Below are positions 1-55,001 of a stretch of DNA of 64,000 bases, piece by piece. The DNA comes from Cenococcum geophilum 1.58 (lineage: Eukaryota > Ascomycota > Dothideomycetes > Gloniales > Gloniaceae): the NCBI GenBank assembly GCA_001692895.1, contig KV748224.1:992001-1056000 (forward strand). The letters are read 5' to 3'. The translations under genes and the position numbers were made by a program. Positions within the stretch are counted from its first letter, which is position 1. Every line of letters begins with the position of its first letter. The notes beneath the pieces were generated by a model. That model did not search any database, was not told the origin of the DNA, and worked only from the letters and a program-made list of their open reading frames with translations.

Positions 1-3000
1 AAATATACAATTAGAATATTATAGGCGCATTAGCTAGCCCAAAAGGCATCACTAGATACTTAAAGTGGCCGTATTAGGTCTTAAAAGCGGTCTTCCACTT
101 ATCCCCTTCTTTAATACAGAGCCTATAGTAGGCGTCTTATAAATCCAGCTTTATAAAGATCTTCGCCCTAGATAGTTAATCTAGCATTTTACTAACTAGT
201 AATAGTAGGTAATGGTTCTTAATTATAATCTTATTAAGACTGTAATAGTCTACGTATAGCCTTATAGTTCTATCTAGTTTTAAAATAAAGAGAATTAGTA
301 CACCTAATAGCGACTTATTAGGCCGGATCCACCCCTTTTCTAGTAACCCATTAAGGTACTCCCGTAGGATCTTAAGCTCTTTATACAAGAGGTTATAAAT
401 AAGAAGATTTAGTAGTTATTTACCTCCTTCTAAATTAATTGTATAATCGTACTCCGAGTTCTATAATAGGACTTTAGCTCTCCTACCCAAAAATACCCTT
501 AATAGGTCCCTTAGGCCTACTGGAATATTTAATAAATTAGGGTCGCGTTTATCCTCTATATTATTATTAAATAGGTTCTAAAGCTCCCTTAGAATACTTA
601 TAGGCAGCGTTATACGCTATAGTGGTTATTTATATATAGTTACCACCGTATATTATACCGTTTTATACGGTAGCTAGTAAAGGGTAGGGAAATCCTTAAC
701 GCAGCGCTTAAGATGCCGTAGTATACTCTCCGCATATTGCTTAAGCTATAGTAACCCGTAACAGTTAAAGTATCTTATAAGATCCTTAAGATCGCCGCCT
801 CCCTATAATATCTCTGTGACCTATCTAGCAGTTCCCTATAGGGTCTCCGTTATAGAGGGGTTATTACCTATACTAGGCTTTATACCCATTTTGCTATTAA
901 ATAGGGGTTAGATCTGATACTCCTTTAGGTATAAAGCGTATACTATTTCGCCTAGGGCTATATTCTCTAGGATGTCCTTTAAACTTATTAGTAATATACG
1001 CCCTTCTAAATCTTTATTATTCCACTATTTAAAGGCTCTAGTCTTAAAGCGTATCTTAAGATCTACTTCCGCAAGCTAAGGGTATCTAAGGATAAAGTTA
1101 TAACCTACAAAGTTAGCCGCCTAGAAGGGTTGCGGGCTAACTACCTTAGTGCGGTTATATATATCGGCCACTAATACTATAAGCTTATAGGCACTATATA
1201 GCTTAATCCAATACTTATCTAAAAAGCCTATAATAGGTTTCCGCCACCTTTGCGATAGGATGAGTTTATACTCCTTTACTAAATTATATCGTATAAGATT
1301 AATTTCGGCGCCGCTATTATATAATACTTAGAACTGTTATACCTTACCTATAGGGAGTATTATTTCTAGCTTAATAGCAATATAGAGAGTTTCTTCTTTT
1401 ATATCTTACCCTAGTTATAGCTAGGAAAGGTCCGCGACTAGGGCTTTTTTTTTAGATTGTTAGTGCGGTTATTACCCTACTTATTTTTCTAATAGGATCT
1501 ACCTCCGGAGTTTTCTCTTAACTTCTTAGAGTGTTTCCGTAAAGGTGCCAGACGGGTATTAGGTTAACCCTAGGAGTCTTTCCCGTTATTTAAGGTTTCT
1601 AACTTTAACCCTTTTAAAGTTCTCTTTAAGAATAGCTTCTTTAAAGGTTGGGTCTGCCCTATATTACTACTAGAGTGCCTACGCTTCTAGTAACCCCCTA
1701 GCTTCCTACTAGAAGAGGTCTAGTTCCTTATTATATCTTTGGCGTTTAGAACTACTTATTTAAAATCCGCATATATAATAATCCGCGATAGGGCTTCTAC
1801 GTGCTTTATTTCGTTACGAATTGCTAGCTTAATTCTAGCCCAGATAAACCCAATCTTCTCCTTCTTATGGATGCTACCGTCTTTATTTTTAAAGGGTTCT
1901 AGATCTATCTACTAAGTGTAAGTTTTTACAAAGTTTATAAACTGGCGGAAGTTATAGCGGTCCAGCTGTATCCTATTCTAGAATAGCTCTATATTATTGT
2001 ATTATACAATATACGGATCTTAAATCTATTTCTTTAGGAAGGTTTACAGCTATAGCTATATAGTAATTTGCTCTTTATTAAGCTAATTAAGTGCAATTTA
2101 GTTTAGTAATCGGTCTTTAATCTTACTAATAATCCAGCGTATACGCTCTTTAGTATTATCTCGTATTATTAGTATTTTAAAAAAGTTATCTACCTTATAA
2201 ACCCAATCGTCCAACTGCTAGGCATTAGGTCTATAGCGGAGTTTTAAACTACTAGAGGCCTTAGCCAGTTGGTCTATATCCTTTTTCTATTTATAGTGTA
2301 GATAACTCTCTAAGTCTTCCACACCTCTTTAAATAGGTACTAGGTAGCTCCTAGAAAGCCCTTAGCCTTAACTAAGTTATAAAAGAATTTACCTAGCTTA
2401 GATTAGACCCTACTAGATCTAGATTTACCCTTAAAGGTTCTAATATATTTATTAGTAGCTTTCTCCTATATAGCTTCTAAGAGCCTTACAACAGCTTCCT
2501 AATATCTATCTTAAAGGAGATTAGTATAGGGCTCTTAACCTTCCGAACTCGGGCCTAAGGAGGTTCCTGCTATAGAGGTAGTATTAATACTAGTAGCTAG
2601 TATAGGCTTCCCAACGGGGCTTGGGTCTTAAGTTAGTAATTAGCTTAAATTACCTAAAGGGGTAGGCCCGCTTAGCTCGTAAGCAGTCTATATACTACTA
2701 CTATACTAATTATAGGCCGGTAGTCTTCTAGGAGGGTTCTAGTTAGTTCCCTAGTTAGACGCGTTAGTATATTTCTCTAGCATTTCTAACTTAGGGGAAG
2801 ATCTTAGAGTTTCCTTTAGCGCTTAATCTTCTAATTGGCTTAAGTAGGGCTAAAGGGGTTCCGGTTGCTTTCTGGTAGCGTTATAACTATTATAAAGGGT
2901 GTCTGCGTTTTCCTTAGTAGTAACTATAGGTGTGCGAGAGTCTTTAAGCTCCTAGAGTATCTGGGTATTAAGGTTTATTCGGCCGTCTTACCTAGAGGGT

Positions 3001-3413
3001 TATATTATCGTAATCTCTTACTATTAGAGGGACCTTCCTACCTTTACGCGACGGCTTTCTATAAGGTATCCGTGGAGTTTCCATTTAGGTTATCGCGAGA
3101 TTTTAAGGGAGGATAGTAGTTATAAATAAAAAGATATAAACAAATAATCTGGTCCTTAAAGCCGACTACCCTTCTAAAAAGAGTAGAAAGGATTTAAATA
3201 TAAGGGGATCTTGTAGACAGGGGGCTATAAGGACACGATTGGAATAGAATAGATTAGTAAAAGAGACAAATCCTTAAGGAGGTAAGGCCTCTAGGATTTT
3301 AAAGACTATATACTACGGGTACGTGCCTCTGGTACGTAACCGGCGACTATTTAAGGGGCGTCTGGGGGTTATCCTAAGGGCAACCCAAGGTGTCCGCAAT
3401 AATATCCCTTATA
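1..3413 (-). mobile_element. B2: RIP-degraded Ty3/Gypsy element, cut by the left window edge
   Basis: This is the 5' half of a Ty3/Gypsy element read on the minus strand. An open stretch at 176-388 (minus) reads as Gypsy reverse transcriptase, with the YVDY block and the following LNKI segment, and the MPFG region of the same enzyme lies at 1-80. Protease would fall near 1000-1400 and gag near 1900-2800. The 5' LTR ends at 3413, where family A sequence resumes. The copy is very AT-rich, broken by a large number of changes, and old. It matches 24410-25276 plus 33164-33497 (B1), which shows that both belong to one family. The rest of the element lies left of the window. Confidence 0.8.
3116..3413 (-). 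repeat. 5' LTR of B2 (about 300 bp)
   Basis: This segment is shared with 33190-33497 (B1). Its right end corresponds to the sequence ending CCCTTACA in B1, so on the minus strand the LTR begins TGTAAGGG. The left boundary is approximate because the second LTR of neither copy is in the window. Confidence 0.6.
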
Positions 3414-5395
3414 ATAGTATAGCGTAGAGCTAATAAATATAAGTAGTATTAAAGAATATAAAAATAGACGACTATGGAAACCTAGAGGATAAGGATTAAA
3501 AAATTAAAGGTCTAAAAAGTAGAGGCTAAACTAGGGATCTTAGTAGTAGAAGATATTTAAATAAACTCTATAGCAAGAAAAGTGGTATAAAGAGGGAGCT
3601 TATATAAACTGTAGAAAATAGGGTTATTTCACTAGAGACTATAGAGGTAGTTAGTATAACTATACGGTAAAGAGAATAAGACTAGTAAATAATATATACG
3701 TATAAAAGGGCAATAACGTGCTATAAGGAATAAAGGAGTATTTAATTAAAAGTTTTACGTTTTGTTATAATAACGTATACTAGGTTTATAAGGACGCTAA
3801 GTATAGCGTAAGCTATTAGCTATAAGAGCCTAAGTTAAGAGGACCTTAGGGTATAAGAGAATTAGATAAAGAACTAGATTAACTCTATAAACTAAATTAA
3901 AACTAAAACGGCATAGCTAGCCAGTAATTAACGAAGAAGTTTCTTATATACTAGTTCTACTAAGTTATAAAATCTAAAAATTAAAATAATTAGACTATAA
4001 GTAGTAATGATAAAGTAATAAAGGTAGCTTATTAGGAGTATATAAACCTTAAGGATATAATAATAGATGTAGAGGTTAAATCTATTATAGAAAAAGGATT
4101 GGTAATAGGGATTAAGACTTTATTAGATATAATATCTATTACTTTATAAGATATAAGAGAAGTAAAATAGTAAGCTACTTTAGCACTTAATAAAGGCAAA
4201 AGGCTATAGGCTTAAGGTTCTTAAGAAGAGATAAAAACCGCTTAAGATTTCTAAAATAGGATAAAATAAGCTTAAGGACCTATAATAGATAAGGATTAAT
4301 AAAATAAAGTATAGGCTTAGTTTAAAAATAATTAAATAAGTATAGGATAAAGATTCCTAGGGCATTAAGGTTTTTAAGACAAGATAAGGGCACTATAGAC
4401 GCCTAAATAGACTAGGGTAAGAGCGTAGCTTAAAAAGGAAGCAAGTTTAAAGTTAATAGCACCTATATTAGGTAAATAAGATATTTAGCCTTAGAGTTAA
4501 ATAAGTAATACTAAAATTATAAGACTTAAAGATTTAGAGGATTTAATAGCTAGACGTAAACTAGGAGAAGACTAAAAAGGATTTAAGAATAGAATTAAAG
4601 CGTAGTAAGAATACTACGGACTAAAGATGCTAGGTAAGCTAAAAATTATTTAAAAAAGGTTACTAATAGGCCTAAGATAGGTACGCTAAGAGTAAAGTAA
4701 CTTAAAGAACTGGAATAAAAGGAGAACCTAGAAGTTCTAACTAAATTTAAAGAATAGTATATAAAGGGCTGTTATAAAGCAGTAAAAATAAGATATTTTC
4801 TTATAGATATATTATATACGCTTATAAAGCTATATTAAAAGTAGTATAGGTAGTAATATAATAATAGTTAGGAAGATTTTTACCTATAACTAAATTAAAG
4901 AGTTATCTAAGATTAAGCAATTATAGAAAGACGCATAAGTTATATTAAAGGAGCATTAATTATAACGTTTAAAAATCTAGAAAAAGGATTAGAGGACTAG
5001 AGATAAGAAAAATAATTTTTAGTACCTATAAATAAGAAACTAATGTTTAGATTAGCTAAATAGAGGTTTAAACTTAAGAGTAAAGATAAGTTAAGAGTTA
5101 ACCTAAAGCATCTAGCGTATTATATATTAATATATATAGATTATATATATAGATAATATATATAGATAATATATATATAATATATATAAAACCCTAAAAA
5201 AAAGAATTAGAAATACCCTATTAGGATATATTAGGCGCTAAATAAGCGGTAATATTAAAAATATTAAGTATATATATAGCTAGTATCTAGTAAAAGTTTA
5301 AAAGTTAAATAACTTAATACTTTAACTAAAAAATTTTTACGGAAAAATGCTTAGATAGATAATAGTAGTAGAAATGCCTAGAAAATATATATCTA
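3414..5395 (+). mobile_element. A1, segment 1: interior of a family A Ty3/Gypsy element (end of gag onward)
   Basis: Sequence from 3414 onward matches the A2 interior from about 26555: the end of gag, the zinc-knuckle region and the long spacer before protease. The A1 5' LTR and the start of gag lie left of B2 and outside the window. The segment stops at the target duplication ATCTA (5391-5395) of the Copia element C. It is heavily RIP-mutated and broken many times. A1 continues at 11545 and 23034. Confidence 0.8.
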
Positions 5396-5638: not shown

Positions 5639-8600
5639 CTAATTAGTAAGCGCGCACAGATTAGCAATTACTTAATACCTCCCCCCGAGCGATTATAACA
5701 GCGACCACCCGTTTAGACTCCTAGTACGACCTGCTAGAAGGTCGGAAGTTGGGGATTATAGACTTATCACTAACTCCGTATACTTATTTAAGTCTTAATA
5801 CGGTTTACTAGAAGTATAATAAACGCAAATATAGACCTATACGGAACCCTTTACCCTTCTACGAACCGTTACGGACTTGTTAATCACCTTTACGGACCGT
5901 TACGGAGACCTCCTACCCCTCTACGAACTACTACGGACCTCTTAAGACCCCTTACGGATACCTTTACCCTTCTACGAACCGCTACGGACCCGTTAACCAA
6001 TTTTACGGACCACTATAAGACCTCTTCTATTTACTACATACTATACTATATATATAGTATAGCAAACATTAGTAAGCAAGTTAATAAAGGTTAAGAAAAG
6101 TGGAGGCAGGGAGTTAACCTCACGTCTATAACCGATGTTAATAACTATATTAAATTTAAAGTTCTTAAATACAAATATTTTAAGCTTATAAATGACGACC
6201 TATAGGAGCAATATTAGAAAGACTTTATGGACTTTACGGAAGCCATTTTTAAGGCCTGTAACCTTACTACTATCCGCAACCTATAAACCCTTTTATGTTA
6301 CTAGGGTGTATAGGTTAAAAGGGATAAATAAGTTACTATTATATAGTCTTTATATAATATAATATATAAGAAGGACTAAATAAAATAGACTAAAGAGGAA
6401 ATCCTAGACCAGGTCAAAGCCACTAAAGAACTCTTTACTTTTTCTAAACTTAATAGGATCGCTAGCCTTATACCTAACCTATTTAACTAAATCTATCCTA
6501 TAAACCTAAGCAGTTTTAGAATTAATCTTACGGGCTAAAGTATACCTAGTACTTAAGTTACGGACCGCAATACCCCCGCAACCTAAATTACGGACTATAA
6601 TACCCCCGTAAACCAAAATATAGACTAAAATACTTCCGCTACTTAAGTTATAAATCCGTAAACTACCTAAGTAAAGACCTATAGCAAGGAGCTAGCTAAC
6701 CTAGCTAAGCTCTATACCAACGAATCTAAGTATAGTAGTAAAAACAATAACTTTAACTTTAAACTAACCATCTTTACGGACCTTTGTTAGAAGGCCGATA
6801 TTTCTAAATAGAAGTTTAGCTAAGTCTACTCTACCATTCTGCGCGGCCTAGTACTTAACTACTACTACACTAACCTTAAGAGTAACCCCCTTGGTGTTCC
6901 CTTTAATAAACTATACAAAGCTATATATAACTACTTTAAAGGACCGGAATATAAGCGTAATATCCTTACCTAATAGAATGCGACTAAGTTACGGACCGTA
7001 ATAGATAAGAACACTAAAAAATTAACCATAGAGTGCCTATAAATCCTTATTAAAGACCTCCGCCACCTATAGTATGGTCTTAATATTAAGCTTTAAACGG
7101 ATGACTTTCTGTATAATAAACTTATTACGGCTTGCTAGGAAATAGAACCCTATAAATACGCCTATTACAAGCCTATAGATACTATAGCTGGCCTTATTAA
7201 TAATTTACGGGCCTCTATTATAATGTATGAAGCCTTAAACCCGCTAGGCAGCACTTAAGCCTTTATTACGGATATTTAATATCCGTAAATAGACTTAGAT
7301 GTCTACTTTACGGACCACCGCTACCGCTAGCAGTACCTGTACTGACCAAGTCCTACCTATAACCCCTATAGCAACCCCCATATAAAAGCATACCCCTATA
7401 GATAAACTAGCCAAAAGTGCTTTATATACGGTAAGGAAGGATATTAGTCTATAAGGTATATCTAGGAAGAACGTAATAAGTCTAAGAAGAGATTTAACAA
7501 TTAGATTAACTAGTTTATCTTAGACTATAAAGGAGAGGAAGTAAAGGAGTCTCTTAATAAGTTAATAGAAGCCTTTATAATTAACTTTAACTTAGATATT
7601 TAGGAATAGGAGACCTTAGAGATATTTCTAACTACTTTTAAACCTTTTACGGACGGCTAAGCCTTTAATATTACGACCATATTAGCCAACCACTCCTTTA
7701 TATACTTGATTATACCCAAAAACCAGCCTATAAGTATACCTATTAGACCTATTATAGATATTATAGACCGCGAACAGGACCTATTTGCATATATTACCAC
7801 TAAACGCTATACCCCTAAAGAATTCTATAGCGTTATAATTAATATAGGTGCCTCTAAGAAGTCTACTATAGGTTATAGACAATACCTTATATATAAGACC
7901 ACCACAAATAATAATACGGATATTGATACTATGTAAACTGGGGCCGTAAACGTCTAATTTGGCATTAGCTTAACCGCATTAATTAAATTAGTTAAAGTTA
8001 AGACTCTAATTAGCCCAGTTAACTTCCATATAGTAAAAGCGGACACCCCTTTCCTACTTTGCCTTGCGGACATAGATAGATTATAGGTTTACTACAATAA
8101 TGTTACGGATACCCTAATTAGCCCCGCAACTGCCCTAAGAAGTAAGAATATTACCCTACTAATTATACGACGATTTAGACACCCGTTCCTTATATAGGGA
8201 GAGACTTTACAGACCTATATTTAGGAATCTTTCGACTATAACCCGTGCTACCTCACCAGTACGGAAATCCACCGCCTATACCGCCGTTTCGGCCACCTAT
8301 TAGCCGAAAAGCTGCATAGAGTCCTTAAACGTTCTAGACATAACGACGTTAATAGGAAGGCAATTAACCACCTAACTAAATACTACTCCTTCTGCTAGAA
8401 ATACGGACGTTCCCTAGGCTGATTTAAGTTTACTCTTTATAAAGACCTTAATTTTAACTACTTAGTGTACGTAGATATTATATATATTAACGGCAGCCTA
8501 GTATTATATATAATTAACGAGGCAACCCGCTATTAAGCTGCCCGTTAATTGCAAAATATATCTATAAAATACACTTAGGAAATTTTATAGACCTACTAGA

Positions 8601-11273
8601 TTAACACATATATTAGACCCCCTAAGTATATTACCCACAACGCTAATAGGAACTTTATTAGTAAGGAATTCTAATAATACGCTACGGCCATAGCTATTTT
8701 AACAAAAGCCGTTCTAGTTAAGGCGCACTAGTCTATTAGGCTTATTAAGCGAGCTTACCTAGCTCTATAGAGAGCTTACTAGATTATTACGGACGAGTGT
8801 AAGGATATTTAAAAGGAACTGGCTTTATAGATGGCCGTAAAAGCCGTTAACAACACCGCTAGCCCTAATAGGCTAGTACCTACCCTCTTAGTTTACGGAG
8901 CTTACCTAAAGATAAGCAACCTAGGCCCTCCTACCCCGTCTATTACGGAACGAGCAGCTATAATATAGAAGGTAATAGCCAAAATAGTTAAATTACGGGC
9001 TAAACAAACTATTAATAACGCTTTGCATTATTACAACGGACCTAATACAACCTTAGTATATAACCTCTCGCTTAATTCTAAAGTCCTTATATAGCGTAAA
9101 AGCGGTAATTAGACTAGACCTTACCGTCTACTAGCCGTAAAAGACGAGACCTACTATATATAGCTCCCTAGCGGACTAATAAGCTTTAGAAGCACGTCCG
9201 TAAAACCCTATTTTTGGTCCAAAAACACCTATAACGTTAAGCCAGATAAACTAAAAGCACCTACTGAATTAGGTAAACCAGAAATACCTACCGAATTAAA
9301 TAAACTAGAAGCACCCTTACCTACCCTAGAGGTCCCCTAGAAACCTACTAAACCTACTAAACCTACCGTAAAGCGTGGCCGAGAATGCCCCTATAAGAAC
9401 CCCGTAATAGAGAATTACCTAACCTCCGTAGGTATATCCGTAAGGTAATCTCCGCCTATAGATATATTAGTTCTAATACAGGAAACCCCTTTTACGGACT
9501 TATAACGCAAAGAGATTAACGGACTACTTAAAAAGGGCGTCTTTGCGGTTATAATAGAGAAAGACATTCCGCAAGGCGTCCGTATATTTAACTTACGCTT
9601 TATTAACGAAATTAAACACCCTAGTATTAACAAAGCCTTTAAGAAATTAAGGCTTATTGTATAAGCTTACAACAACTAGGAAAAGGGTTTAGTCCTTATA
9701 CAGTCGCCTATAATTTAACGAGTTAGTTAACGGATTATACTTATACTTACGCCTAAATTACAGCAAATTAAACCCGTAGCCCTTTACTTACGGGACATCT
9801 TATAAGCCTATGTGTAGTCCAACACCTACCTAAGTAGGGACATCTTTATATGACTACCCTGCGAGCTTAACCTATAACTAGGAACAATTTTATAGGTTAT
9901 AAAACCTCTTTACGGAGTACCAGAAGCCAGAAACCATTAGTTTAAGATATACCACTAGCATTACATTAGTAAACTTAAAATAGAATAGTTAACCTATAAC
10001 CCCTACCTCTTATACACCCTATTAAATAGCCTCGGTATTATTAGACTCTAAACTAATAATACCCTCTTCCTAGTAGACCAAACCTTTACGGACGCTAAAG
10101 AAACTAAACTATAAAAGGTAAAGTTCTTGGTAAAGCTATAAGAACAGTTAACTAAATAGACTCTAATTAAGTTTAATAAAGGCTTAATTACATAAAAGGG
10201 CAACCTAATTAAGCTAACTTAGGAACGCCAAGCTTAAAACCTAAAGCCTATTATAGTAAAACCTATAAACCTTACTAGTTCCCGCAGAGGGACTTATAAG
10301 ACCATAAATATAAAGGACTAATACGCTGCACAGCGTATAAGAGGCGCCTATATTGCTATAGTCTGTTAACCTAAATCTACCTACGATCTATCCTTTACGG
10401 CCCAGGCAGTAGACCTATAAGAAGAAAATATTAAGCAGCTTAATAAGCGCATCCAGTGGCAAATTAATAATGCAGCAAGGGGACTTATTTTTATACCACT
10501 AGATCTAAATTCCCTTAGCCTACTAGTATTTACGGACGCATCTTTTGCTAATAATAAAGACCTATTACTACAAATCGGCTTTATAATTGTACTTATAGAC
10601 CGTAATTAGGACGCAAATATACTATATTGGTCTTTAATTAAGTACAAACAAGTAACCTATAGTATACTAGCCTCTAAACTATATACACTAGCTTATAGAT
10701 TTAATATAGCAGCCGCAATTAAATTAACGGTCTAGAAGATTCTATAACTAGAGTAGTTACCCCTAGTTTTATGCACCAATTTAAAGTCCCTTTATAACTA
10801 CCTAGTTAAACTAGGTATAATATAAGAGAAGAGGCTTATAGTCAACCTAATATGCTTATATTAGGCTTATAAACAATATAAGATTACAGAGGTTAAATGG
10901 ATTAGTAGCGAAGATAACCTAGTAAACGCTATAACTAAGGCAAAGCCGTATTAAGCTCTTAAAACCCTAATTAATATAAATAAGCTTAACCTAAAGGTTA
11001 TAGAATAGGTAGAGCGAGACTAACGGAGCATTTATGGTTTAGTTACGGCCCGTCAGAAGGCCGTACGATGCATTTATGGCCTGTTAAAAGGCCGTATAAT
11101 TCATTTTACGGACCGTAAGCAGGACTTACGGCCAGCTTAGAGCACCATTTGGAAGGCAACCTAGAAGGCACCTTAGGAGGAATTTCCTATGTATTTTCTT
11201 ATGTGTTTTATAGTTCTATTAAGACAATTACGGAGGCTATATATAAGTGGTTTTATTTTCTAAGTACCGCCAG

Positions 11274-14705: not shown

Positions 14706-15074
14706 TATTACGGAGCGAGTATAAGCGGCGGTAATATATAGCAAGGTAGATATTATTAAGCTATATACATAAACTGTGTAAGAAGTCAAGACGTTACATA
14801 AGGAAAGAAGGTAGAAAAACGGGAAGAAAGGGTATATATTGTAGACTTAGTTACTTAGTCAATACGTATATAGAGTAGAATAGGATTTAGGTAGTAGTCC
14901 TGGCAGGACTTAGTAGGATTTAGTAGAACTTAGTGGAATATAGTAGAATGTGGTAAGTTACCATTAAATTGCCACAGATTTCTATTAAATTGCCGTCTTA
15001 TAGTTGGTCTTTAGTTGCTAAGTTAGTAGAAATAGGTAAACGTATATAAGGTGTCACAGGGGTATCCCATAATA
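14706..15074 (-). repeat. 3' LTR of D1 (369 bp)
   Basis: It is homologous to 22664-23033 and, in reverse complement, to the D2 LTRs. A polypurine-type tract, seen as a run of C on the plus strand at about 15077-15085, borders it on the internal side and fixes the orientation. Confidence 0.87.
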
Positions 15075-18000
15075 GTACCCCCCCTTTAAACTCGAGCTTC
15101 TGCGAGATAGGGCTATAGGAGTTCTAGGTGGAGTTTATAAAAGTCTTTTACGGCTTATATAAGTCCTATAGAGTTAACAGGTTCCTATAAGGGCTTAGTA
15201 TAGCCTCTCCACTTTATAAGATATATATATTAGCGTTTCCGTTTATTATATTTAATATTATTAATTCTTTTAATAAAGTACTTATCCTTACCGTCCACCT
15301 TAACTAGTGGGGGAGGGTCCTATATCTATCTAGGCAGGGCGTCTAATATGGGGGTAGTAGGGTAGAGGACTAACGTATAAAATACAGGGTAGATTTTAAC
15401 CGTATTAGGGAGCTTCAGTTAGTAAGTATAAGGAAAGATAACCTTTTTAACCTTATAAGGGCCAGCATTCTTCTAATTAAGTTTCTTAGTAGGTCATTTT
15501 ATATTTAGATTTCTTATATCTAGCCAGACAAAATTACCAATTTAGTAGACTGGTGCTAGGGTTTGTTTCTTATTTACTGCGGATTTATGGATAGATTAAG
15601 CCTATATTATCTTATTAGTAAGAAACTGTTATAGTTCCTCTATCTTTTTTACGAATTTATTTACTTTTATAACTTATAAGGCGTAATAAGCAGAGCAAGG
15701 AACATTATTAAAGGGTTTAAAACCCATTTATAGGTGCTAGCCGTAATTAGCTAGAAATGGGGAGACTTTCGTGGGTTTTAAGACGGAATTATTTATAGTA
15801 AACTTGGTAAATGCGAGCTAGTTAATATAGTTATCTTATAAATATAACGTATATATCCGAATATACTATTCTATTATAGTATTTATGCATTCCGTTTAAC
15901 TATCCATTTCTAGGTAATATATAGTAGATAATAGTGCTTTAATGCGGAGTTAAGTAGTTAGTTCTTTCTAAAATGCTAAGATAAACTAACTACCTTTATT
16001 AGCGATAATTGTTTTAGGGAGTCTATAGAGTTTTTATACATAATCTAGGAATAGTTAGGCGACGGCAGGCGTTAATATATCGGGATAGGCGATTAAGTAT
16101 CTTATCTTAGATAGTCGGTCTATAACTACTATAATATTTATATAGCCTCTACTTTTAGGGAGGTTAATAATAAAGTCAATTAAGATATCCTTCTATTATT
16201 AGTTTAGAATAGGTAGTAGCTTTAAAAGACCGTTATACGTCTTATATAAGGCTTTAGCTTATCAGCAGGTATAGCAGCTAGAGATATACCTTCGTGTTAT
16301 ATTATATATATTCGGCTAGTAATACTCCCGTTAGAGTAGTTCTAGGGTTTTTTTTAGCCTGGGTGGCTGGTGACAGGTAGATTATATATATATTTAAAGA
16401 GCTTAAGCTTAAGCTTATTATAATTAGGGATAACTAGATAGTTCCAGTAATATAAGAGGTTTCCGCGAGCTTTGTATTTACTTAAAGAAATCTTTTTAAA
16501 ACGTCTAACGCTATCTTAAATTAGCTTAAGCGTTTCTTAGATAAACTCGTTATTTAGGTATTTATTAACTATAATCTATTTAATTAGTTAATTAGTTATT
16601 TTAAGGACGTGTACTATAAGGCCTTTAGTAGGAGGGTTAAATAGTTTAGGGTAAAGCAGGGTCTGATTTTAGTAAGAGCGCGCTTCTTTTAGGGCTAGCG
16701 CGTCTTGCGAGCGTTAGGTTAGGGTATTAGGCTTCTAACCTTAGACGCCTAGGCGGTATATAATTAAGAATTAGAAGCGTAATAGATATTTTAACTAATG
16801 GGCCTAATAATAACTTAGCTGTTTTATGGTTGTAAAGTACTATAGGTTCTTATAGTCGCTAAGGACCTTAATTAGAAATCTGGCGCCTTTTAGTCTGGGT
16901 TACTATTGCTTAAAGCATCTAATAATAGCTAGTAATTCTTTATTATAGATCTTATAATTATATTTAGTAGGGCTTAGTTATTTTAAAAAGTATACTACCA
17001 GGTATAATACTTCTTCTTTATTATATTAAGATAGAATGCCTCTAGTAACATAATTAGATAAGTTAGCTTTTATAAAACTTATTCGTTCTAGGTTAAAGTA
17101 TTAGAGTATAGGTATAGTAGTAAATATAACCTTTAAATAAGTAAAGGCCTTTTTATATTCCTTGTTAAAAATAAAAGCTTTATCCTTTTGGGTTAGAGTA
17201 ATAAGGAGTAAAACTAGGGTAGAGAAGTTATTAATAAACCGTTAGTAGAAATTAGCAAATCCTATAAAGGCTCTTACATCCTTAACGTTCTCGGGTTCTT
17301 ACTAGTTTATAATTACTTTAACTTTCTTTAGGCCTATTTATATACTATTTATAAAAATAAGGAGTCTAAGATATAGGACTTCCGTTTTATAAATCTTGTA
17401 TTTATCTATATCTAGTTATAGACTAGCTCCGTATAGGGCTTATAGAATAAGATTAACATATTTCCAATATTTAGTTAGGTTATTACTATATATTAGAATG
17501 TCGTTAATATAAGTAGTATAAAAGATGTCTAGGTAGGGATGTAGGGTATTATTTACGTAATATTAAAACGAGCTTAGAGCATTTGTGAGGCCAAATGGCG
17601 TTACTCAGTATTTAAATAATCTATACTAAGTACGAAATGTAGTAAGCTATTTATCTCCTTTTGCTATATAGAGGCGGTTAAATATAGAGATAATATTAAG
17701 CTTCATATAGTAGCGAGCCTTACTTAGTTAGTTTAGTGTCTCCTATATTAATAGGATCGGATATTAGTTCTTAACGGTAACGGCGTTAAGAGCTTAGTAG
17801 TTTATATAGAAGCGCAGACCGCCGCCGGGTTTCTTAATAAAGATTATTAGTACGGCTATAGGTGACAAGCTTGCTCTAATAAATCCTTTACTTAGGTTCT
17901 TATCTAAATACTTTTAAAGCACTTAGAGTTTGTTTTAAGATATCTTATATAGGAGTTTAAATCCAGGCTACTTTTCTTCTTTAAGTATAATCTTATAGTC

Positions 18001-19129
18001 GTATAATTGGTATTCCGGTAGCTTATCGGCTTCCTTTTATAAAAATACTTCTAGGCGGTTATAGTACTCTACTAGTACCTTCGTAGCAGGGTTAGTATGC
18101 TTCTTTAGTGCTAAGGCCTTCTTAATATTAGCTATAGTAATAGCAAAGATTATATATTCAGGTTTCTTAGTAAGTTATACTAGCGGAATAGCTCTAATTA
18201 TACGGATATCTAGGGTGCTAAGCTCGCTTAGATTGTCCATAGTTTCTTATTTAGGTTTAGGTTCGGTATTAGGTATAGAGTTAGTATTAGATTTAGGCTT
18301 AGGTTCTTTAAGAATCCTTTTTATAGTAGAATACTAGTCCTTCTAGTATTTTTATATATTAAGCTTAAGCTTCTACTTGGCTTGGGGCGGTATAGTGCTT
18401 AGTAATAACTTATAGAATTTAGTAGAGTTTTCGGATCCTTAGTGGATGTCGGTAGAATTCTTATATTAGTGGAATTTGGTAGATTCCTTAGGTATAGGGT
18501 AGATAGTTATAGAAATTTTAGACTAGTAGATTTTAGTAGATTTTTTAGATATTAGTTTTAGGCCTAAGCAGCGGGTTATAATGCACTTCTGCTTATAACG
18601 GGAGGCGGTAAATAGAAGCTTAAGGTTGTTTTAATTAATAGTTACCTTATATAGTTTTATCTAGGGTTATTTAAGGATTACTAGGTAACCGAGGGTGGTA
18701 ATAAAAAGCTTAATTAGTTCTTTATAGTTTAGGTATTAGAGTTTTAGGGTTACTATATAGGTAATACGGCCTAAGATGGTGCGTTTACTATTAAATCCAA
18801 ATACGTTAATATGCCGGTTAAGGGGGGTTAGGGTAAAACTATTATCTTACGCAAAGATCTTATTAATAAATCCTATGCCGCTAGCTCCTGTGTTAATTAG
18901 GATTTAAGCATTAGCCTATTAATTATTCTGCTAAAGACGGCAGTTAATAGTTATACTATGGTCCCAAGAGTCGAAGTTCGTAACGTTAAATGCGTTTAAT
19001 GAGATCCTATACATCGGCAAAATATGGTACCCTTTCAATGGCCTCAATGGTTGGTGGTTGACGCAATTGGCGCGCAGTTGAGGTCATTTGGCAACTCGAC
19101 CGACTAGCCTATGTCGTGTTTTTTTGACA

Positions 19130-19190
19130 CGCAGCCTGCGCGCAGCCTGCGCGCAACCTGCGCGCAACCTGCCAGCAATCTGCGCATTTG
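19130..19190. repeat. Tandem array 1 in E: about 12-13 bp unit, GCGCGCARCCT type
   Basis: There are four to five copies of a GC-rich unit with consensus around CAGCCTGCGCG, decaying toward 19190. It lies just inside the left terminal repeat. Confidence 0.7.
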
Positions 19191-19330
19191 GCAACCATAA
19201 TTATATTTACCTCTTTTATACTAATAGCATATTTTAAATAAATAAAAGCTATTTTAAAGCTATTTATAAGGCTAGCAAAATAAATAATAATATTTTAGAT
19301 AATTTAATATAATATAGCGATGGTTCTCTT

Positions 19331-19705
19331 CTACCTATCTACCTATTAACTTACCTACCTGGCCTATCTACCTACTGCCTGCAATCGCCTACCTGTCTGC
19401 ATTGCCTACCTATCTGCATTTGCCTACCTGTCTGCATTTACCTACCTGTCTGCATTGCCTACCTGCCTGCATTGCCTACCTGTCTGCATTGCCTACCTAA
19501 TCTGCATCGCCTACCTATCTGCATCGCCTACCTGTTTGCATCTGCCTACCTGTCTATATCTGCCTACCCGTCAGCATCTGCCTACCTGTCTGCATCTGCT
19601 TGCCTGTCTGCATCTGCTTACCTGTCTGTATCTGCCTACCTGTCTGCAATCTGCCTACCCGTCAGCATCTCCCCTGTTTATACCTACCTGTCTGTGCTTA
19701 CCTTG
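19331..19705. repeat. Tandem array 2 in E: 17-19 bp unit, CTACCTGTCTGCAT type
   Basis: There are roughly 20 imperfect copies of a pyrimidine-rich unit reading CTACCTGTCTGCATTTGC with small length variants. Because unit length is near a multiple of three, long leucine- and cysteine-rich open frames run through it by chance. These are not genes. Confidence 0.85.
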
Positions 19706-19739
19706 ATTCGATCAATTAATCGAATCGTTTATAGTGTTC

Positions 19740-20215
19740 GCTGGCTAGTCGGTTTGTCGTCTGGTTCTGGCGACGGTCGTCTGGTTCTAGCGACGGTCGT
19801 CTAGTTCTACTGTAACGGTCGTCTGGCTCTGGTAACGGTCGTCGTCTGGCTCTGGTAACGGTCGTTCTGGTTCTGGCGACGGTCGTCTAGTTCTAGCGAC
19901 GGTCGTCTGGTTCTGGCGACGGGCTTCGTCCTTGGTCTCTGCGCGACGGTTCGTTCTGGCTCTGGGCGACGTCGTCTGGTTTTTGGCGACAGTCGTCTTG
20001 ACTCTGGAGACGGTCGTCTGGCTCTGGCGACGGTCGTCTGGTTCTGGTAAACGGTCGTCTGGCTTCTGGTTCTGGCGACGGTCGTCTGCGTTTCTAGCGA
20101 CAGTTGTCTGGCTCTGGCTCATAGTCGTCTGGCCTTACGACGATTGTCTGGTTCTGGCGACGGTCGGTCTGGTTTCTAAGCGATAGTCATCCTAGTTCTA
20201 GCAACGGGTTCCTCT
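19740..20215. repeat. Tandem array 3 in E: about 20 bp unit, GGTCGTCTGGTTCTGGCGAC
   Basis: There are roughly 20 copies with 18-26 bp spacing. On the minus strand the open frame encodes RRQNQTT-like repeats, the expected result of translating a repeat rather than evidence for a protein. Confidence 0.85.
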
Positions 20216-20344
20216 GCTGGCTGCCGTTCTAGTGGCCTCCCTAGGTAGGGAGGATGTAAGGAGGGAAGGAGCGGTAAAAATAAGGCGGCTAAACATAGGC
20301 AAGAGACACGTGTAGACGCTATCGGGAATATAGCGGGGACCCCC

Positions 20345-21110
20345 GATGCAGAAGCTCTCGTGTAGAGCCTCCGTACGCAGAGCCTAGCGCAGAGCCTTGT
20401 GCAGAGCCTCTGTACGTAGAGCTTCGTATAAGAGCTTCGTGTAGAGCTTCGTGTAGAGCCTCCGTATGCAGAGCTTCGCGCAGAGCCTCGTGCAGTAGCT
20501 TCGTGTAGAGGCCTCCGTACGGCAGGAGCTTCGCGCAGGCCTCGTGCAGAGCCTCGTGCAGAGCTTTCGTGCAGAGCACGCCGCTCGTACGCGCGGCTGC
20601 CGCGCAGAGCCTCATGCGAGCTCTACGTGCAGAGCTTCGTGGCAGGCGCTCTCGTAGAAGCACGCGAAGAGCTCTCGCACGCAGAGCCTGAGCTTCGTGC
20701 AGAGCTTCTCCGCTTACGTAGAGCTTCGTGCAGAGTCTTCGTGCAGAGCTTCGTACAGAGCTTCGTGCAGAGCTTCGTGCGGAGAGCTTCGTGCAGAGCT
20801 TCGTGCAGAGCCTCCGTACGCAGAGCCTCGCGCCAAGCCTCGTGCAGAGCCTCTACGTAGAGCTTCGTGCAGAGCCTCCGTAGAGCAGACGCTTCGCGCA
20901 GAGGCTGGTGCAGAGCCTCTGTACTGTAGAGCCTTCGTGTAGAGCTTCGTGTAGAGCTTCGTGTAGAGCTTCGTGTAGAGCTTCGTGTAGAGCTTCGTGT
21001 AGAGCCTTGTGCAGAGCCTCGTGTAGAGCTTCGTGTAGAGCTTCGTGTAGAGCTTCGTGTAGAGCTTCGGTGTAGAGCCTTGTGCAGAGCCTTGTGCAGA
21101 GCCTCTAAGT
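20345..21110. repeat. Tandem array 4 in E: 12 bp unit, AGAGCTTCGTGC
   Basis: There are about 60 copies of a 12 bp unit (AGAGCTTCGTGC or AGAGCTTCGTGT, with AGAGCCTC variants). The most uniform part is 20935-21065. A period of 12 keeps all frames open, which explains the Ala/Leu/His-rich reading frames on both strands. Confidence 0.88.
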
Positions 21111-21164
21111 AATAAGACTATGTAAGATTATATAAGATTGCGTAATTGGCATATAGCTTTACCT

Positions 21165-21415
21165 TAATTGCATATCAAGGAATATACAGTTAGCTTTTAA
21201 AGTTGTTAAATAGGTTAACTGCGTGTCAAGGAATATGCAGTTAGCTTTTAAAGTTGTCAAGTTAGTTAATTGCGTATTAAGTTAGTTAAATTGCATGTCA
21301 AGTTAGTCAATTGCGTATTAAGTTAGTTAAATTGCATATTAAGTTGGTCAATTGCGTGTCAAGTTGGTTAATTGCGTGTCAAGTTGGTTAAATTACATGT
21401 CAATTACGCGAAACG
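21165..21415. repeat. Tandem array 5 in E: about 20 bp unit, CAAGTTGGTTAATTGCGTGT
   Basis: There are about ten copies, starting with longer units that include CAGTTAGCTTTTAAAGTTG and settling into 20-21 bp units. The array ends about 50 bp before the right terminal repeat. Confidence 0.8.
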
Positions 21416-22663
21416 CGCCACACAAAGTCTACTTGAATCTCATCCTGCGAATATTTTCCCGATGTAGCAGAGCTGTCCTAGAGAGCGACTTAGCTCTAGG
21501 ACCTTCCTTTTAGAGGCAATTAGGGTAGGGTTCTTATAGGACGTCGGTTAGAGCTTCGTCCTTATAAATAGTGCTTACTAATTATTAAGCTAGAGCTAGA
21601 TAAAGATTAAGGATAGTAGCTAGAGGATTAGGGCGGTGGACTGCTAGTGTTAACTATTTATAGATCTTTTTAAAAAGGGGCAGAGCAGTAGTTAGAGAGG
21701 TAGGAGTTACTTCTATATTTAAAGCAGAGGCCTAGCTTAATACGTCGTTCTTGTTTAAAGGACCCTAGTAAGGCATATCCTAAGGTCCCAGTGTTAATAT
21801 CTATAGCGTTAGGGTGCTTAGGCTAAGATAATAACTTAGTAGACGTTTATAGGGTTGCTATATTATATTGGGGGGCGGGCTTTGGTATTGGGCGTAGTAT
21901 ATTATTATACTATTTATTAATGACGTTTACGCAGGCATTAAGGGCTCCTAGTAGGTCTACGCCTATTAGGGAGGTTTTTAGTTTAGGGCTTAAAGATTTA
22001 ATGAGGCTATTAATTAGTGCGGAGTTATTCTAGCCTATTTCCCTTACGTAACAGTTAAATTCGGAGAAGTATATTAGGAAACTTTTCGTTTCTTAAGCTA
22101 TATAGTTTATCTTTCTCTAAGCAGTAGCTTAGCGGTTTAGGTTACTGTATAAGACTTTAAGAAGTACAACTAGGCTTTATACTAAGGTTAGCTACTTTTC
22201 CTCCTAGTTAACTTAGGGCGTAACAGAGTTAATTAGCTTATTTTTAAGCTAGCTTAAAAATAATCGGAGTTTTTATTATTTATTAGTAAATACTAGGGGA
22301 TCTAGTAGTCGTTCGGATTGTTTTAGTATAGTAGTTAGTTTAAGGTAGATAGTTACTATAGGTTTAGGGCTTACGTTCCACGTATTTATCTCTAACGATA
22401 GTACTTGGTCTTAAGGCCCTAATATAGGCATCTTAAGTATGCGGATTTCTTCTTAGAGGTCCTTAATTAATCGCTAGTGTTATACTTCTTATTCGGCTTA
22501 TTATTAATTTAAAGTAGCTTAGTTTTATATAAGGGCGTCTATAAAAGACTTTTATATTTCTGCTAGTTATTCTTAAACTGCGAATATAATACTAGCGGCC
22601 ATTATAGGGGCTTTAGGGTCGTTTTATATTTTAGAGGTAGTATATAAAGTTAATATAACGTAG

Positions 22664-23033
22664 TGTTATAGAGCGAGTATAAGCGGCGGTAATATATAAC
22701 AAGGTAGATGTTATTAAGCTATATATATAAACTGTATAAAAAGTTAAGACGTTATATAAGGAAAGAAGGTAGGAAAACGGGAAGAAAGGGTATATATTGT
22801 AGACTTAGTTGCTTAGTTAATACGTATATGGAGCAGAATAGGATTTTAGGTAGTGGTCCTAGTAGAACTTAGTAGGATTTAGTAAAACTTAGTGGAATAT
22901 AGTAGAATATGGCAAGTTGCCGTCAGATTGCCGCAGATTGCTATTAGATTGCTATTTTATGGTCAATCTCTAGTTACTAAGTCAGTAGAAACAGGTGGAC
23001 GTGTATAAGGTGTTATGGGGGTGTCCTATAACA
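22664..23033 (-). repeat. 5' LTR of D1 (370 bp)
   Basis: This is a direct copy of 14706-15074. It is followed by CCTAT at 23034-23038, the duplicated target. Confidence 0.87.
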
Positions 23034-49452: not shown

Positions 49453-49822
49453 TGTCACGGGACACCCCCGTGACACCTTACACACGTCTACCTATTTCCA
49501 CCGACTTAGCAATTAGAGACTAACCGCGAAATGGCAATTTAACGGCAATCTGATGGCAATCTAACGGCAATCTACGGCATTCTGCTATATTCTGCCAAGT
49601 TCCACCAAATTCTATTAAGTTCTGCTAGGACTATGACCTAAACCCTATTCTGCCTATATATGTGTTAACTAAGCAACCAAGTCAATAATATATACCCTTT
49701 CTTTCTATTTTCCTACCTTCTTTTCTTACACAACATCTTAACTTTATTACGCAGTTTATATATATAGCTTAATAATACCTACTTCGCTATATATTATTAC
49801 CGCTTATGCTTACTCTATAATA
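49453..49822 (+). repeat. 5' LTR of D2 (370 bp)
   Basis: It begins TGTCACGGGACACCCCCGTG and contains four short tandem copies of a GGCAATCTAAC unit (about 49538-49575). It differs from the 3' LTR mainly by C/T and G/A transitions. Confidence 0.9.
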
Positions 49823-49946
49823 CTACGTTACGTTAAAAACTTATACTACCCTCCAAAAATGCAGAATAACCCTAAAGCCCCCGCAACGGCCGACGCTATT
49901 ATAGCTATACTTTAAGAACAATTAGCAGGTATATAGAAGTCCTTTA

Positions 49947-50015
49947 NNGACNCCCTTNNATAGNANNAAGCCACTTTAACTNAATAGNAAGCNNAATAAG
50001 AAGCACNANAATAAN
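49947..50015. other. Cluster of ambiguous bases in D2 gag
   Basis: Fifteen isolated N characters fall within 69 bp, separated by resolved bases. This looks like conflicting calls from collapsed repeat copies and not like an assembly gap. Confidence 0.8.
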
Positions 50016-53000
50016 AATTAATTAAAGCACTTTAAGAAGAAGTCCGTATCCTTAAGATGCCTATATTAAGGCCCTAAAACCAAACGCCATCTCCGGAAAT
50101 AAATACGCGGAATATAAGCCCCAAATTAGTAGTAGTTACTTACCCTATAAAACCAACTACTACACCAAAATAATCTAAGAAACTACTAGACCCCCTAGTA
50201 TTCACTAGTAAACAATAAGAGCTTTAATTATTTTTAAGCTGGCTTAAGAATAAGCTAACCGGTAATACTAACCGCTACCTAACTAAAGCCAACCAACTCT
50301 ATTACGCCCTAAGTTAACTAGAAGAAAATATAGCTAACCTTATTAAACCTCTCCAACCAAACTTAGTATAAAGCCTAGTTACACTTCTTAAAGCTATATA
50401 TAGTGACCTAAACCGCCAAGCTACTGCTTAAAGAAAGATAAACTAAATAACTTAGGAAAAGAAAAGTTTCCTAGTATACTTTTCTAAATTTAACCACTAC
50501 GCAAAAAAAATAGGCTAGAATAACTCCGCACTAATTAACAGCCTTATTAAGTCCTTAAGCCCTAAACTAAAAACCTCCCTAATAGGCATAGACCTCCCGG
50601 AAACTCTTAACGCCTATATAAACGTTATTAACAAACAGTATAATAATATACTACGCCTTATACTAAAGCCCATTTATTAATATAATATAATAACCCCGTA
50701 AACGTTTATTAAGTTATTATCTTAACCTAAGCACCCCAACGCCATAGATATTAATACTAGGACCCTAGAATACGCCCTATTAGGGTCCTTTAAATAAGAA
50801 CAACGCATTAAGCTAGGCCTCTACTTTAAATATGGAAGTAGCTTCTACCTTTTAAACCACTACTCCGTCCCTATACCCCAAAACAATTTATAAACGGCCA
50901 ATACTAGCAGCCGTTCACCACATTAATCTTCCGGTTACCGTCCCCGATCTTTATTTGGTTCCACCCCTATATCTAGTAAGCACTATTCACGAGGATAAAG
51001 CTATAGCTAACGTCCCACAAGAACCCCACCCTAATTGCCTCTAAAAGGAAGGTCCTAAAGCTAAGTCGCTCTCTAGGACGGCTTTGCTATAGGATCTCAT
51101 TAAACACATTTAACGTCACAAACTCCAACTCTTAGGACTATAGCATAACTATTAACTGTTATCTTTAGCAAAATAGTTAATAGGCTAACACTTAAATCCT
51201 AATTAATATAGGAGCTAGCGGTATAGGATTTATTAATAAGATCTTTATATAAGATAATGGTTTTACCCTAACCCCCCTTAACCGGCATATTAACGTATTT
51301 GGATTTAATAGTAAACGCACCATCTTAGGCCGTATTACCTATGTAGTAACCCTAAGACTCTAATACCTAAACCATAAAGAACTAATTAAGCTTTTCGTTA
51401 CCACCCTAGGTCACTTAGTAATCCTTAGATAACCCTAGATAAAGCTATATAAGGTAACTATTAATTAAAACAACCTTAAGCTTCTATTTACCGCCTCCCG
51501 TTATAAGTAGAAGTGCTTTATAACTCGCTACTTAAACCCAAAACCAAAATTTAAAAATTCTACCAGATTCCACCAATATAAGATTTCTACTAAATTCCAC
51601 TAACATAAGAATTCCACCGACACCCACTAAGGATCTAAAAATTCCACTAAGCTCCATAAGTTATTACTAAGCACTACACCGCCCTAAACTAAATAGAAAC
51701 TTAAACTTAGCACACAAAACTACTAAAAGGACTAGTATCCTATAATAAAAAGAATACTTAAAGAACCTAAACCTAAATCTAATACTAACTCCGTACCTAA
51801 TACTAAACCTAAACTTAAACAAGAAACTACAGACAAGCCAAACGAGCTTAGTACCCTAGATATCTACATAATTAGAGCTACTCTGTTAGCGCAACTTGCT
51901 AAGAAACCTAAATATATAATCTTTGCTGTCACTATAGCTAATATTAAGAAGGCCTTAGCACTAAAGAAGTACACTAACCCTGCTATAAAGGTACCAGTAA
52001 AGTACCATAACCGCCTAGAGGTATTCTTACGGAAGGAAGCCGATAAGCTACTAGAACACCAATTGTACGACCATAAGATTATACTTAAAGAAGGAAAGCA
52101 GCCTAGATTTAGACCCTTATATAAAATATCCTAAAATAAACTCTAAGTACTATAAAAGTATTTAGATAAGAACCTAAGTAAAGGATTTATTAGAGCAAGC
52201 TTATCGCCTATAGCCGCACTAGTGATCTTCATTAAGAAACCCAGTAGCAGTCTGCGCTTCTATGTAGACTACTAAGCTCTTAACGCCGTTACTATTAAGA
52301 ATTAATATCCGATCCCATTAATATAGGAGACACTAAACTAACTAAGTAAGGCTTATTACTACACGAAGCTTAATATTATCTCTATATTTAACCGTCTCTA
52401 TATTATAAAAGGGGATAAATAGCTTATTATATTTTGTACCCGATATAGACTATTTAAGTACTTAGTAACACCCTTTAGCCTTATAAACGCCCTAAGCTTA
52501 TTTTAACATTATATAAACAATACCCTACGCCCCTACCTGGATATCTTCTATACTACTTATATTAATAACATCCTAATATATAGTAATAACCTAACCAAAT
52601 ATTGGAAATATGTTAACCTTATCCTATAAGCCCTGTACAGAGCTAGTTTATAATTAGATATAGATAAATGCGAGTTCTATAAAACGGAAGTTCTATACCT
52701 TAGACTCCTTATTTCTATAAACAGTATATAAATGGACCCAAAGAAAGTTGAAGTAATTGTAAACTAGTAAGAACCTAAGAACGTTAAGGACGTAAGAGCC
52801 TTTATAGGATTTACTAATTTCTACCAACGGTTTATTAATAACTTCTCTGCCCTAGTTTTACCCCTTATAGCTCTAACCTAAAAGAATAAAGTCTTTATCT
52901 TTAATAAGGAATATAAGAAGGCCTTTACCTATCTAAAGGTTATATTTACTACTACGCCTATACTCTAACACTTTAACCTAAACTAAATAAGTGTTATAGA

Positions 53001-55001
53001 AGCTAACTTATCTAACTACGTCACTAGAGGCATCCTATCTTAGTATAATAAGGATGGAGTATTACATCCTATAGTATACTTCTTAAAATAACTAAGTTTA
53101 GCTAAATATAACTATAAGATCTACAATAAGGAATTATTAGCTATTATTAGGTATTTTGAATAATAGCGACCCAAACTAAAAGGCGCTAGATTTCTAATTA
53201 AGGTCCTTAGCAACTATAAGAACCTATAATACTTTACAACCACGAAACAGCTAAGTCATTATTAGGCCTACTAGTTAGAATATCTATTTTATTTCCAATT
53301 CTTAATTATATACCGCCTAGGCGTCTAAGGTCAGAAGCCTAATGCCCTAACCCAATACTCGTAAGACGCGCCAGCCCTAAAAGAAGCGCGCTCTTACCAA
53401 AATCAGACCCTACTTCGCCCTAAACTATTTAACCCTCCTACTAAAGATCTTACGGTACACGTTCTTGAAATAACTAATCAATTAATTAAATAGATTATAG
53501 TTAATAAATACCTAAATAACGAGTTTATCTAAGAGACGCTTAAGCTAATATAAGATGGCATTAGATGCTCTAAAAAAAAAAAAATTTCTTTAAGTAAATA
53601 CGAAGCCTATAGAAATTGCTTATATTACTAAAACTATTTAGTTATCCCTAATTATAATAAGCTTAAGCTTAAACTCCTTAAATATGTATACAATCTACCT
53701 ATTACCGGCCACCTAGGCTAAGGAAAGACCCTAGAACTACTCTAACGGGAGTATTATTAGCCAAATATGCATAACACGACATAAAGGTACATCTTTAGCT
53801 ACTATACCTACCGACGAGCTAAAGCCTCGCATAAGACATATAACGGTCTTTTAAAGCCACTGCCTATTCCAAACCAAAGATAGAAAAATATCTTAATTAA
53901 CTTTATTATTAACCTTCCTAAGAGTAAAGGCTGCATAAACATTATAGTAGTTATAGACCGACTATCTAAAATAAGATACTTAATCGCCTGCCCTAATATA
54001 TTAACGCCTACTATCGCCTAACTATTCCTAGATTATATATGGAAACTCTATGGACTCCCTAAAACAATTATCTCTAATAAAGGCAGCTAGTTTGTCTTAG
54101 CATTCTAAAAGGAACTAACTACTTAACTCTACATTAAAGCACTATTATCTACTACGTATTACCTAGAAACGGATGGCTAAACAGAACGCATAAATGCTAT
54201 AATAGAACAGTATATTCGGATATACATATTATATTTATAGGATAACTGGATTAACTGGCTCGCATTCGCCAAGTTTACTATAAATAATTCCGTCTCAAAA
54301 ACCACGAAAGTCTCCCTGTTCCTAGCTAATTACGGCCAGCACCTATAAATAGGTTTTAAACCCTTTAGTAATATTCCTTACCCTACTTACCACGCCTTAC
54401 AAGTCGCAGAAGCAAATAAATTCATAGAGAAGATAGAGGAACTATAATAGTTCCTTACTAATGAGATAATATAGGCTTAATCTGTCTATAAAGCCGCAGT
54501 AAATAAGAAATAAACCCTAGCACCAGCCTACTAAATTAGCAATTTTATTTGGCTAGATATAAGAAATCTAAACACGAAATAACCTACTAAGAAACTTAAT
54601 TGGAAGAACGCTGGCCCTTATAAGGTTGAAAAGGTTATCTCTCCTTATGCCTACCGACTAAAGCTCCCTAATACGGTTAAAATCCACCCCATATTCCATA
54701 TGTTAGTCCTCTACCCTACTACCCCTATATTAGATGCCCTGCCTAGACAGATATAAGACCTTCCCCCACTAGTTAAAGTAGATGGTAAGAACGAGTACTT
54801 TATTAAAAGAATTAATAATATTAAGTATAACAAACGGAAACGCTAATATATATATCTTACGAAATAGAAAGGCTTTACTAAGTCCTTATAGGAACCCATT
54901 AACTCTATAAGACTTATATAAGCCGCAGAAGACTTTTACAAACTCTACCCAGAACTACCACAGCCCTATCTCGCAGAAGCTTAAGTTTAAAGGGGGGGTA
55001 C

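Follow-up and report, generated by a model that had tools for sequence, protein, structure and literature searches.

How a segment of DNA that appears to consist largely of repeats and to lack genes of its own became mobile is the question raised by a 64,000-nucleotide stretch of the Cenococcum geophilum 1.58 genome (assembly GCA_001692895.1, contig KV748224.1, positions 992,001 to 1,056,000; hereafter the window, to which coordinates refer unless a locus or another contig is named). Within it, positions 19012-21464 were originally predicted to hold a transposon-like element without a visible transposase, whose cargo is five different tandem arrays. We conclude that this element is very probably a non-autonomous member of a Plavaka-class transposon family, which is probably moved in trans and carries arrays as passengers.

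The element is a 2453-bp insertion within D1, a long terminal repeat (LTR) retrotransposon at 14713-23031. A further copy of this retrotransposon, D2 (49453-55371, inverted relative to D1), has the empty site: when the D1 flanks are fused with a single TA, the resulting 105 bp align to D2 with 96 identities and 9 mismatches and are gap-free at the junction, and therefore the empty site is real and the clean insertion proposed for this locus stands. As also predicted, the element is bounded by 14-bp terminal inverted repeats, CATCGGCAAAATAT on the left (19012-19025, forward strand) and CATCGGGAAAATAT on the right (21451-21464, reverse strand, the forward strand showing its reverse complement), and is flanked by TA at 19010-19011 and 21465-21466, the two copies of a target-site duplication for which no strand is assigned. 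No transposase is visible inside it, again in agreement with the prediction, the longest stop-free frame being 177 codons long, or 98 codons from its first Met. Because such frames are short and the arrays vary by insertions and deletions, a coding function of the arrays was rejected.

The element belongs to a family of several hundred copies in this large, repeat-rich genome, which was searched over 177 Mb in 162 contigs. The genome-wide search for the 14-bp ends that the original prediction had proposed as a check returned 667 exact motifs (323 + 344), compared with 16 (7 + 9) for the pattern read backwards. The sequence CGGGAATATAGCGGGGACCC (20323-20342), which marks the junction between the third and fourth arrays, occurs at 678 places (343 + 335) with no more than one mismatch, compared with 4 (1 + 3) in the control, and was recovered in 36 of the 55 copies examined; the total may be near 1000 elements, a rough figure estimated from well-preserved copies. 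These copies come from a sample of 60 loci, comprising the window, 39 loci from a DNA search with the element (75 matching pieces, with the best 40 of 2581 candidates scored) and 20 loci found by end motifs facing each other 0.5-7.1 kb apart. For the latter, 100 of the 667 end-motif places were used, among which at least 25 facing pairs lie closer than 10 kb; two of 25 pairs were already in the sample, and three on contig C5 were left out. Five of the 60 loci, which do not have two ends at one mismatch, were dropped, leaving 55 two-ended copies. An exact 2-bp duplication flanks 53 of them, with TA at 27, TT at 8, AA at 5, TG at 4, CA at 3, AT at 2, and CC, GA, AG and CT at one each. These numbers are far above the 0.084 per site expected for chance agreement of 2 bp, and TA is above its share of 0.159 among the dinucleotides of the window; therefore, the duplication is genuine, with TA as a favored but not an obligatory target. 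The predicted TA duplication is thus correct for the window copy, while for the family it has to be restated as a varied duplication of 2 bp.

Five arrays were delimited in the window element with Tandem Repeats Finder, all on the forward strand: array 1 at 19130-19185 (11 bp, 5.1 copies), array 2 at 19371-19668 (18 bp, 16.9 copies), array 3 at 19756-20174 (20 bp, 19.5 copies), array 4 at 20347-21102 (12 bp, 60.7 copies) and array 5 at 21164-21391 (51 bp, 2.3 copies, and 20 bp, 6.7 copies). Of the unit sizes read earlier (12, 18, 20, 12 and 20 bp), the last four agree with this result, and only the first needs correction, to 11 bp. The complete chain in this fixed order is present in 52 of the 55 two-ended copies and in 17 of the 20 copies selected by their ends alone, counting each unit at up to 20% mismatch, for which shuffled sequences gave a background per element of 0.44 matches for the 11-bp unit and at most 0.1 for each of the other four. 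The arrays travel with a single mobile element, as had been proposed. The three exceptions are a partial sequence (L064), an interrupted copy (L065) and L063, in which a 515-bp element (301-815 of that locus) has identical ends and a 2-bp TA duplication and is devoid of the inner arrays; it is a second kind of short derivative.

The order of units within the arrays is inherited as well. For 21 copies chosen from 54, each aligned unit by unit to copy L001, the alignment was better than all of 20 shuffles of the unit order in every one of the 21 cases for arrays 2 and 4 and in 19 of 21 for array 3. Therefore, the chain was present in an ancestor and was copied as a block, and the lengths of the arrays were altered later. 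Median identity in the arrays is 0.77-0.88 with gaps counted, compared with 0.98 in the left 300 bp, where only substitutions were counted; the gap-free identities of 0.945-0.954 flatter the arrays and carry no weight.

The ends of the element are shared with a much larger repeat that carries a Plavaka transposase domain (PF18759), for which 123 scored matches were found in the genome. On the right, locus L077 (contig C3) has a PF18759 domain, followed by a 50-residue piece, in which 29 of 46 aligned residues agree with the terminal part of a different Plavaka protein encoded in this genome (L078), then by 22 copies of TATATAAGAT, and finally by a right end that aligns to bases 2140-2453 of the element (21151-21464, forward strand) with 76% identity over 345 columns and has the identical last base; over the last 110 bases, 99 are identical. 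A remnant of the TATATAAGAT array is present in the window element at 21112-21140 on the forward strand. With L077 as the query, 21 of 669 candidates were scored, and 15 further matches run from the query start, 12 of which stop at base 7462-7467, that is, at the terminus, while the remaining three end at 7406, 7486 and 6878; for the match ending at 6878, a separate tail piece extends to 7467. The piece upstream, L079, is still inside the repeat, since its 30 other scored matches start at query base 1 or 6. On the left, the first 161 bases of L080 (contig C4) match the window element at 158 positions, and the match, with 84% identity over 321 columns, stops at element base 304, so that the common left end spans 19012-19315 on the forward strand.

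The two ends and the transposase are connected by a recurring spacing. The sequence just inside the left end of L080 was found at 40 scored places (of 88 candidates), and when these were compared with all 123 PF18759 matches, 38 of the 40 were followed, no more than 60 kb downstream, by a Plavaka match of the same orientation, the distance being 16.4-17.0 kb in 24 cases, whereas flipping the strand gave 0 of 40, and looking upstream gave 2 of 40. Furthermore, 18 of the 40 left-end places pair with one of the 21 right-hand match ends, 13 of them at 19.46-19.97 kb; adding the roughly 335 bases by which the left-end query is set back from the terminus of the element gives a parent length of about 20 kb. 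The 13 kb of parent sequence read contain no unit of array 2 or 3 and one stray unit match to array 4, while array 1 is present in the left end of L080, and array 5 belongs to the shared right end. Judging from this distribution, arrays 1 and 5 are parts of the left and right ends of the parent. The predicted five-array cargo is accordingly to be read as five arrays that do exist, of which three would be the cargo proper.

Both ends also carry a subterminal motif, TTGACACGCA. It lies in the forward direction at 19124-19133 (forward strand, element base 113) and in reverse within array 5 at element bases 2209, 2281, 2342 and 2362 with no more than one mismatch. At the same threshold, 48 of the 54 copies longer than 1 kb have the motif forward in the left end and reversed in the right end, and none has it everted; in the window element, the 8-mers common to both ends comprise 23 inverted and 2 direct ones. 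It is plausible that TTGACACGCA is bound as a subterminal motif.

Taken together, we propose that the element has retained the ends of its parent (304 bp on the left and about 314 bp on the right, each with inverted TTGACACGCA), and would lack the roughly 19 kb between them, including the transposase, in place of which it holds three tandem arrays. A Plavaka transposase supplied in trans would cut and paste this passenger, leaving a varied 2-bp duplication with a preference for TA, and every move would copy the arrays as a block, whose length may shift later. The inner arrays themselves are probably passive. The duplications and the origin of the ends are in line with this proposal. PlavakaB is described in the available part of a paper on Plavaka termini as having a target-site duplication of 2 or 3 bp and the termini CATCA..TGATG (PMC12730594). 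In the family studied here, the duplication is exactly 2 bp at 53 of the 55 copies and 3 bp at one, and its ends are shared with an element that has a Plavaka transposase.

Several observations weigh against this proposal. Every listed PF18759 match has stops in the matched stretch, some of which introns may explain, and none of these matches shows a working transposase. The parent is a composite, for which L080 on contig C4 and L077 on contig C3, two different copies, were linked by their coordinates; the inner arrays could come from the approximately 7 kb of it that lie outside the pieces read, and the target-site duplications were read at copies of the array element, not at the 20-kb element. 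Besides the copy with only a 3-bp duplication, one of the 55 has no duplication at all. The termini are CATCG..CGATG, agreeing with the CATCA..TGATG printed for PlavakaB, in the part of the paper available, at four of five bases (PMC12730594). Six of the 54 copies are without an inverted TTGACACGCA pair, and in the right end of L077 two mismatches have to be allowed before the motif appears (6 times in reverse, never forward), a divergence that may be due to repeat-induced point mutation (RIP). Finally, contig C1 has 12-bp arrays with no exact end or junction nearby. The 12-bp pattern, of which 100 places on this contig were listed, forms 31 clusters there. Within 3 kb, 8 of these clusters have an exact end and 7 an exact junction (only exact places being used); at least one of the two accompanies 12 clusters, and the other 19 lack both.

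The C1 clusters bear on the possibility that the arrays are independent satellites around which the ends fell by chance, or that they were joined by the assembler. The original prediction had named arrays without these ends at other loci as an outcome that would count against a single element, and the 19 clusters on C1 might be such independent arrays or else copies of the element with decayed ends. However, the same chain lies between the same ends in nearly all two-ended copies, with exact duplications around them. In addition, the 12-bp pattern was found genome-wide at 3413 places (76 in the control), fewer than the 4595 that the number of elements would lead one to expect (a rough prediction, based on well-preserved copies), so that the count calls for no further source of arrays and excludes none. 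We thus regard independent satellites or an assembly join as very improbable. The suggestion that the element may be a seed for satellite DNA gained no support. C1 also has two stretches of the 12-bp array, separated by about 250 bp, that lie on opposite strands (4671790-4672067), which is unlike the layout of the element. Single N letters are present in L016, L021, L029, L037, L057 and L060, by eye mostly at positions variable between C and T.

An alternative partner would be a transposase of the Tc1/mariner or Fot1/pogo type, with the element as its non-autonomous derivative. TA flanks the window copy and is enriched in the family, the genome is rich in transposases of these types, with 150 scored matches to PF03184 and as many to PF13358, and for two matches there is an end motif at a distance of a few kb (C2:575364 near C2:576665, and C106:22416 near C106:26221). 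However, the Tc1/mariner superfamily is not known to duplicate anything but TA, whereas the exact 2-bp duplication is something other than TA at 26 of the 55 copies. Two such neighbours are about what chance would give, according to a rough estimate in which the listed places were compared by eye, and the Tc1-type matches show no recurring spacing, in contrast to the 16.4-17.0 kb of the Plavaka matches. A partner of this type is hardly credible, and we dropped it because the duplications are not specific for TA.

A different question is whether the inner arrays are really passive. They might be working parts at which a protein of the transposon or of the host docks, either in the way that subterminal repeats are bound in CACTA elements or to counter silencing, as VANC does at the tandem repeats of VANDAL elements, and they would be kept because copies bearing them spread better; if this is true, a fixed chain of unlike arrays would be an evolved non-coding device. 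In favor of such a role, identical arrays occur in identical order in most copies, including those selected by their ends alone, and tandem target repeats are known for VANC proteins, according to the accessible part of the paper that describes them (PMC10398659). On the other hand, the arrays have diverged more than the left end (with the different treatment of gaps noted above), the 515-bp element of L063 has a 2-bp duplication without them, and no arrays of the inner units were seen in those pieces of the parent that were read. It is therefore unlikely that the arrays are maintained as docking sites. Equally doubtful is the more specific idea that they form docking platforms for Plavaka or host proteins which protect the passenger against RIP or silencing, or aid transposition, although this would explain the high copy number. 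Passengers carried between Plavaka ends remain our preferred description of the arrays.

Other potential partners and autonomous copies were considered. L078 contains the best PF18759 match, but its 9.9 kb has the end motif only once and only at two mismatches, and its own ends were not found within these 9.9 kb; it was therefore rejected as the partner. Its gene (7141-8013 and 9332-9475) is a better-preserved Plavaka gene of another family, which adjoins a 10-bp array of about 92 copies and lies near a 21-bp array, and arrays beside Plavaka genes may recur in the genome. An 18-bp array of the ATATAATAAGGCTTAATA type, unlike the 18-bp array of the passenger, is located within the 20-kb Plavaka element itself (L079, 561-780). 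Of ten stop-free pieces of the parent scanned for accessory genes, none was accepted, no search being aimed at TET/JBP, and two names below the cut-off (E 0.076 and E 0.0036) were taken as chance. Among end pairs more than 3 kb apart, autonomous copies were rejected, as L051 and L054 seem to be ordinary array elements whose long unmatched stretches are nested insertions, and four stop-free frames from these two loci matched no Pfam family. The stop-free pieces of the insertion in L051 (element bases 279-5079) resemble, by eye, those of an element with a tyrosine recombinase and a reverse transcriptase, and the pieces that were tried match no Pfam family.

The window copy was also said to have escaped most RIP although D1 around it had not. 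The RIP substrate index is 0.37-0.39 for D1, 0.99 for the whole element and 1.81 for its left end, and the window copy is thus well above D1, as claimed; other copies of the family do carry RIP-type differences, which makes the claimed escape only half right. In the 21 chosen copies, compared with the window copy, RIP-type changes account for 58% of the differences in the left end, 79% in array 2, 61% in the right end, 24% in array 3 and 20% in array 4. Most simply, D1 had already been mutated when the element inserted into it. The LTRs of the two retrotransposons, about 360 bp each, are 87% alike in D1 (matches at 14713-15072 and 22671-23031) and 90% alike in D2, which starts with TGTCACGG, ends with CCGTGACA and has ATTAG at either flank. 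Both D2 LTRs contain an 11-bp array of the GGCAATCTAAC type according to Tandem Repeats Finder.

In this family, the spread of tandem arrays by one class of transposon can be followed by counting, with hundreds of related copies, an empty site, an array-free relative and a parent. Comparing array lengths across copies and strains makes the transposon origin of satellite-like DNA directly testable. It further describes a Plavaka element of about 20 kb together with a gene-less partner.

Arrays inside mobile elements are known from several other systems. Helentrons are not known to have terminal inverted repeats with a varied 2-bp duplication, while the element described here has 14-bp inverted ends and 2-bp duplications. 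The comparisons below draw on the portions of the cited papers that were available. The Cg_HINE Helentrons of the Pacific oyster are likewise non-autonomous and spread satellite-like central arrays, but they are of another class and have one, exceptionally two, repeat clusters, compared with three inner and two outer arrays here (PMC7492417). Among CACTA/EnSpm elements, the 20.5-kb Tgmt of soybean is similarly large, with a transposase, subterminal motifs at both ends, deletion derivatives and CA...TG termini; it differs in its CACTA termini and 3-bp duplication (PMC2613891). The inverted TTGACACGCA pairs conform to such subterminal motifs, but the termini of our element are CATCGG rather than the CAC..GTG printed for CACTA/EnSpm (PMC12730594), and a profile search with the EnSpm family PF02992 gave no match, as did its control. 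BrickBuilt, a miniature inverted-repeat transposable element of Porphyromonas gingivalis, contains a 23-bp minisatellite inside a gene-less inverted-repeat element, as in the present case, but it is bacterial and has one array, at 19 places in one strain (PMC4596501). VANDAL elements in Arabidopsis also have tandem arrays in the non-coding parts of DNA transposons, and for these the array-binding protein VANC is known (PMC10398659). Further tandem repeats born from transposons are listed in a review (PMC9659126). No paper on array-bearing Plavaka derivatives was found in the open-licence literature searched, and the available part of the paper on Plavaka termini does not describe array-bearing non-autonomous elements (PMC12730594). 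Plavaka transposons of the PlavakaB lineage resemble the present family in CATC...GATG termini, 2-bp duplications and a PF18759 partner, and the family is distinguished from them by G as the fifth terminal base, a gene-less passenger, a 20-kb parent and a RIP-marked genome (PMC12730594). Compared with these systems, the kind of element is known, and it is the chain of arrays together with a clear partner that makes this one unusual.

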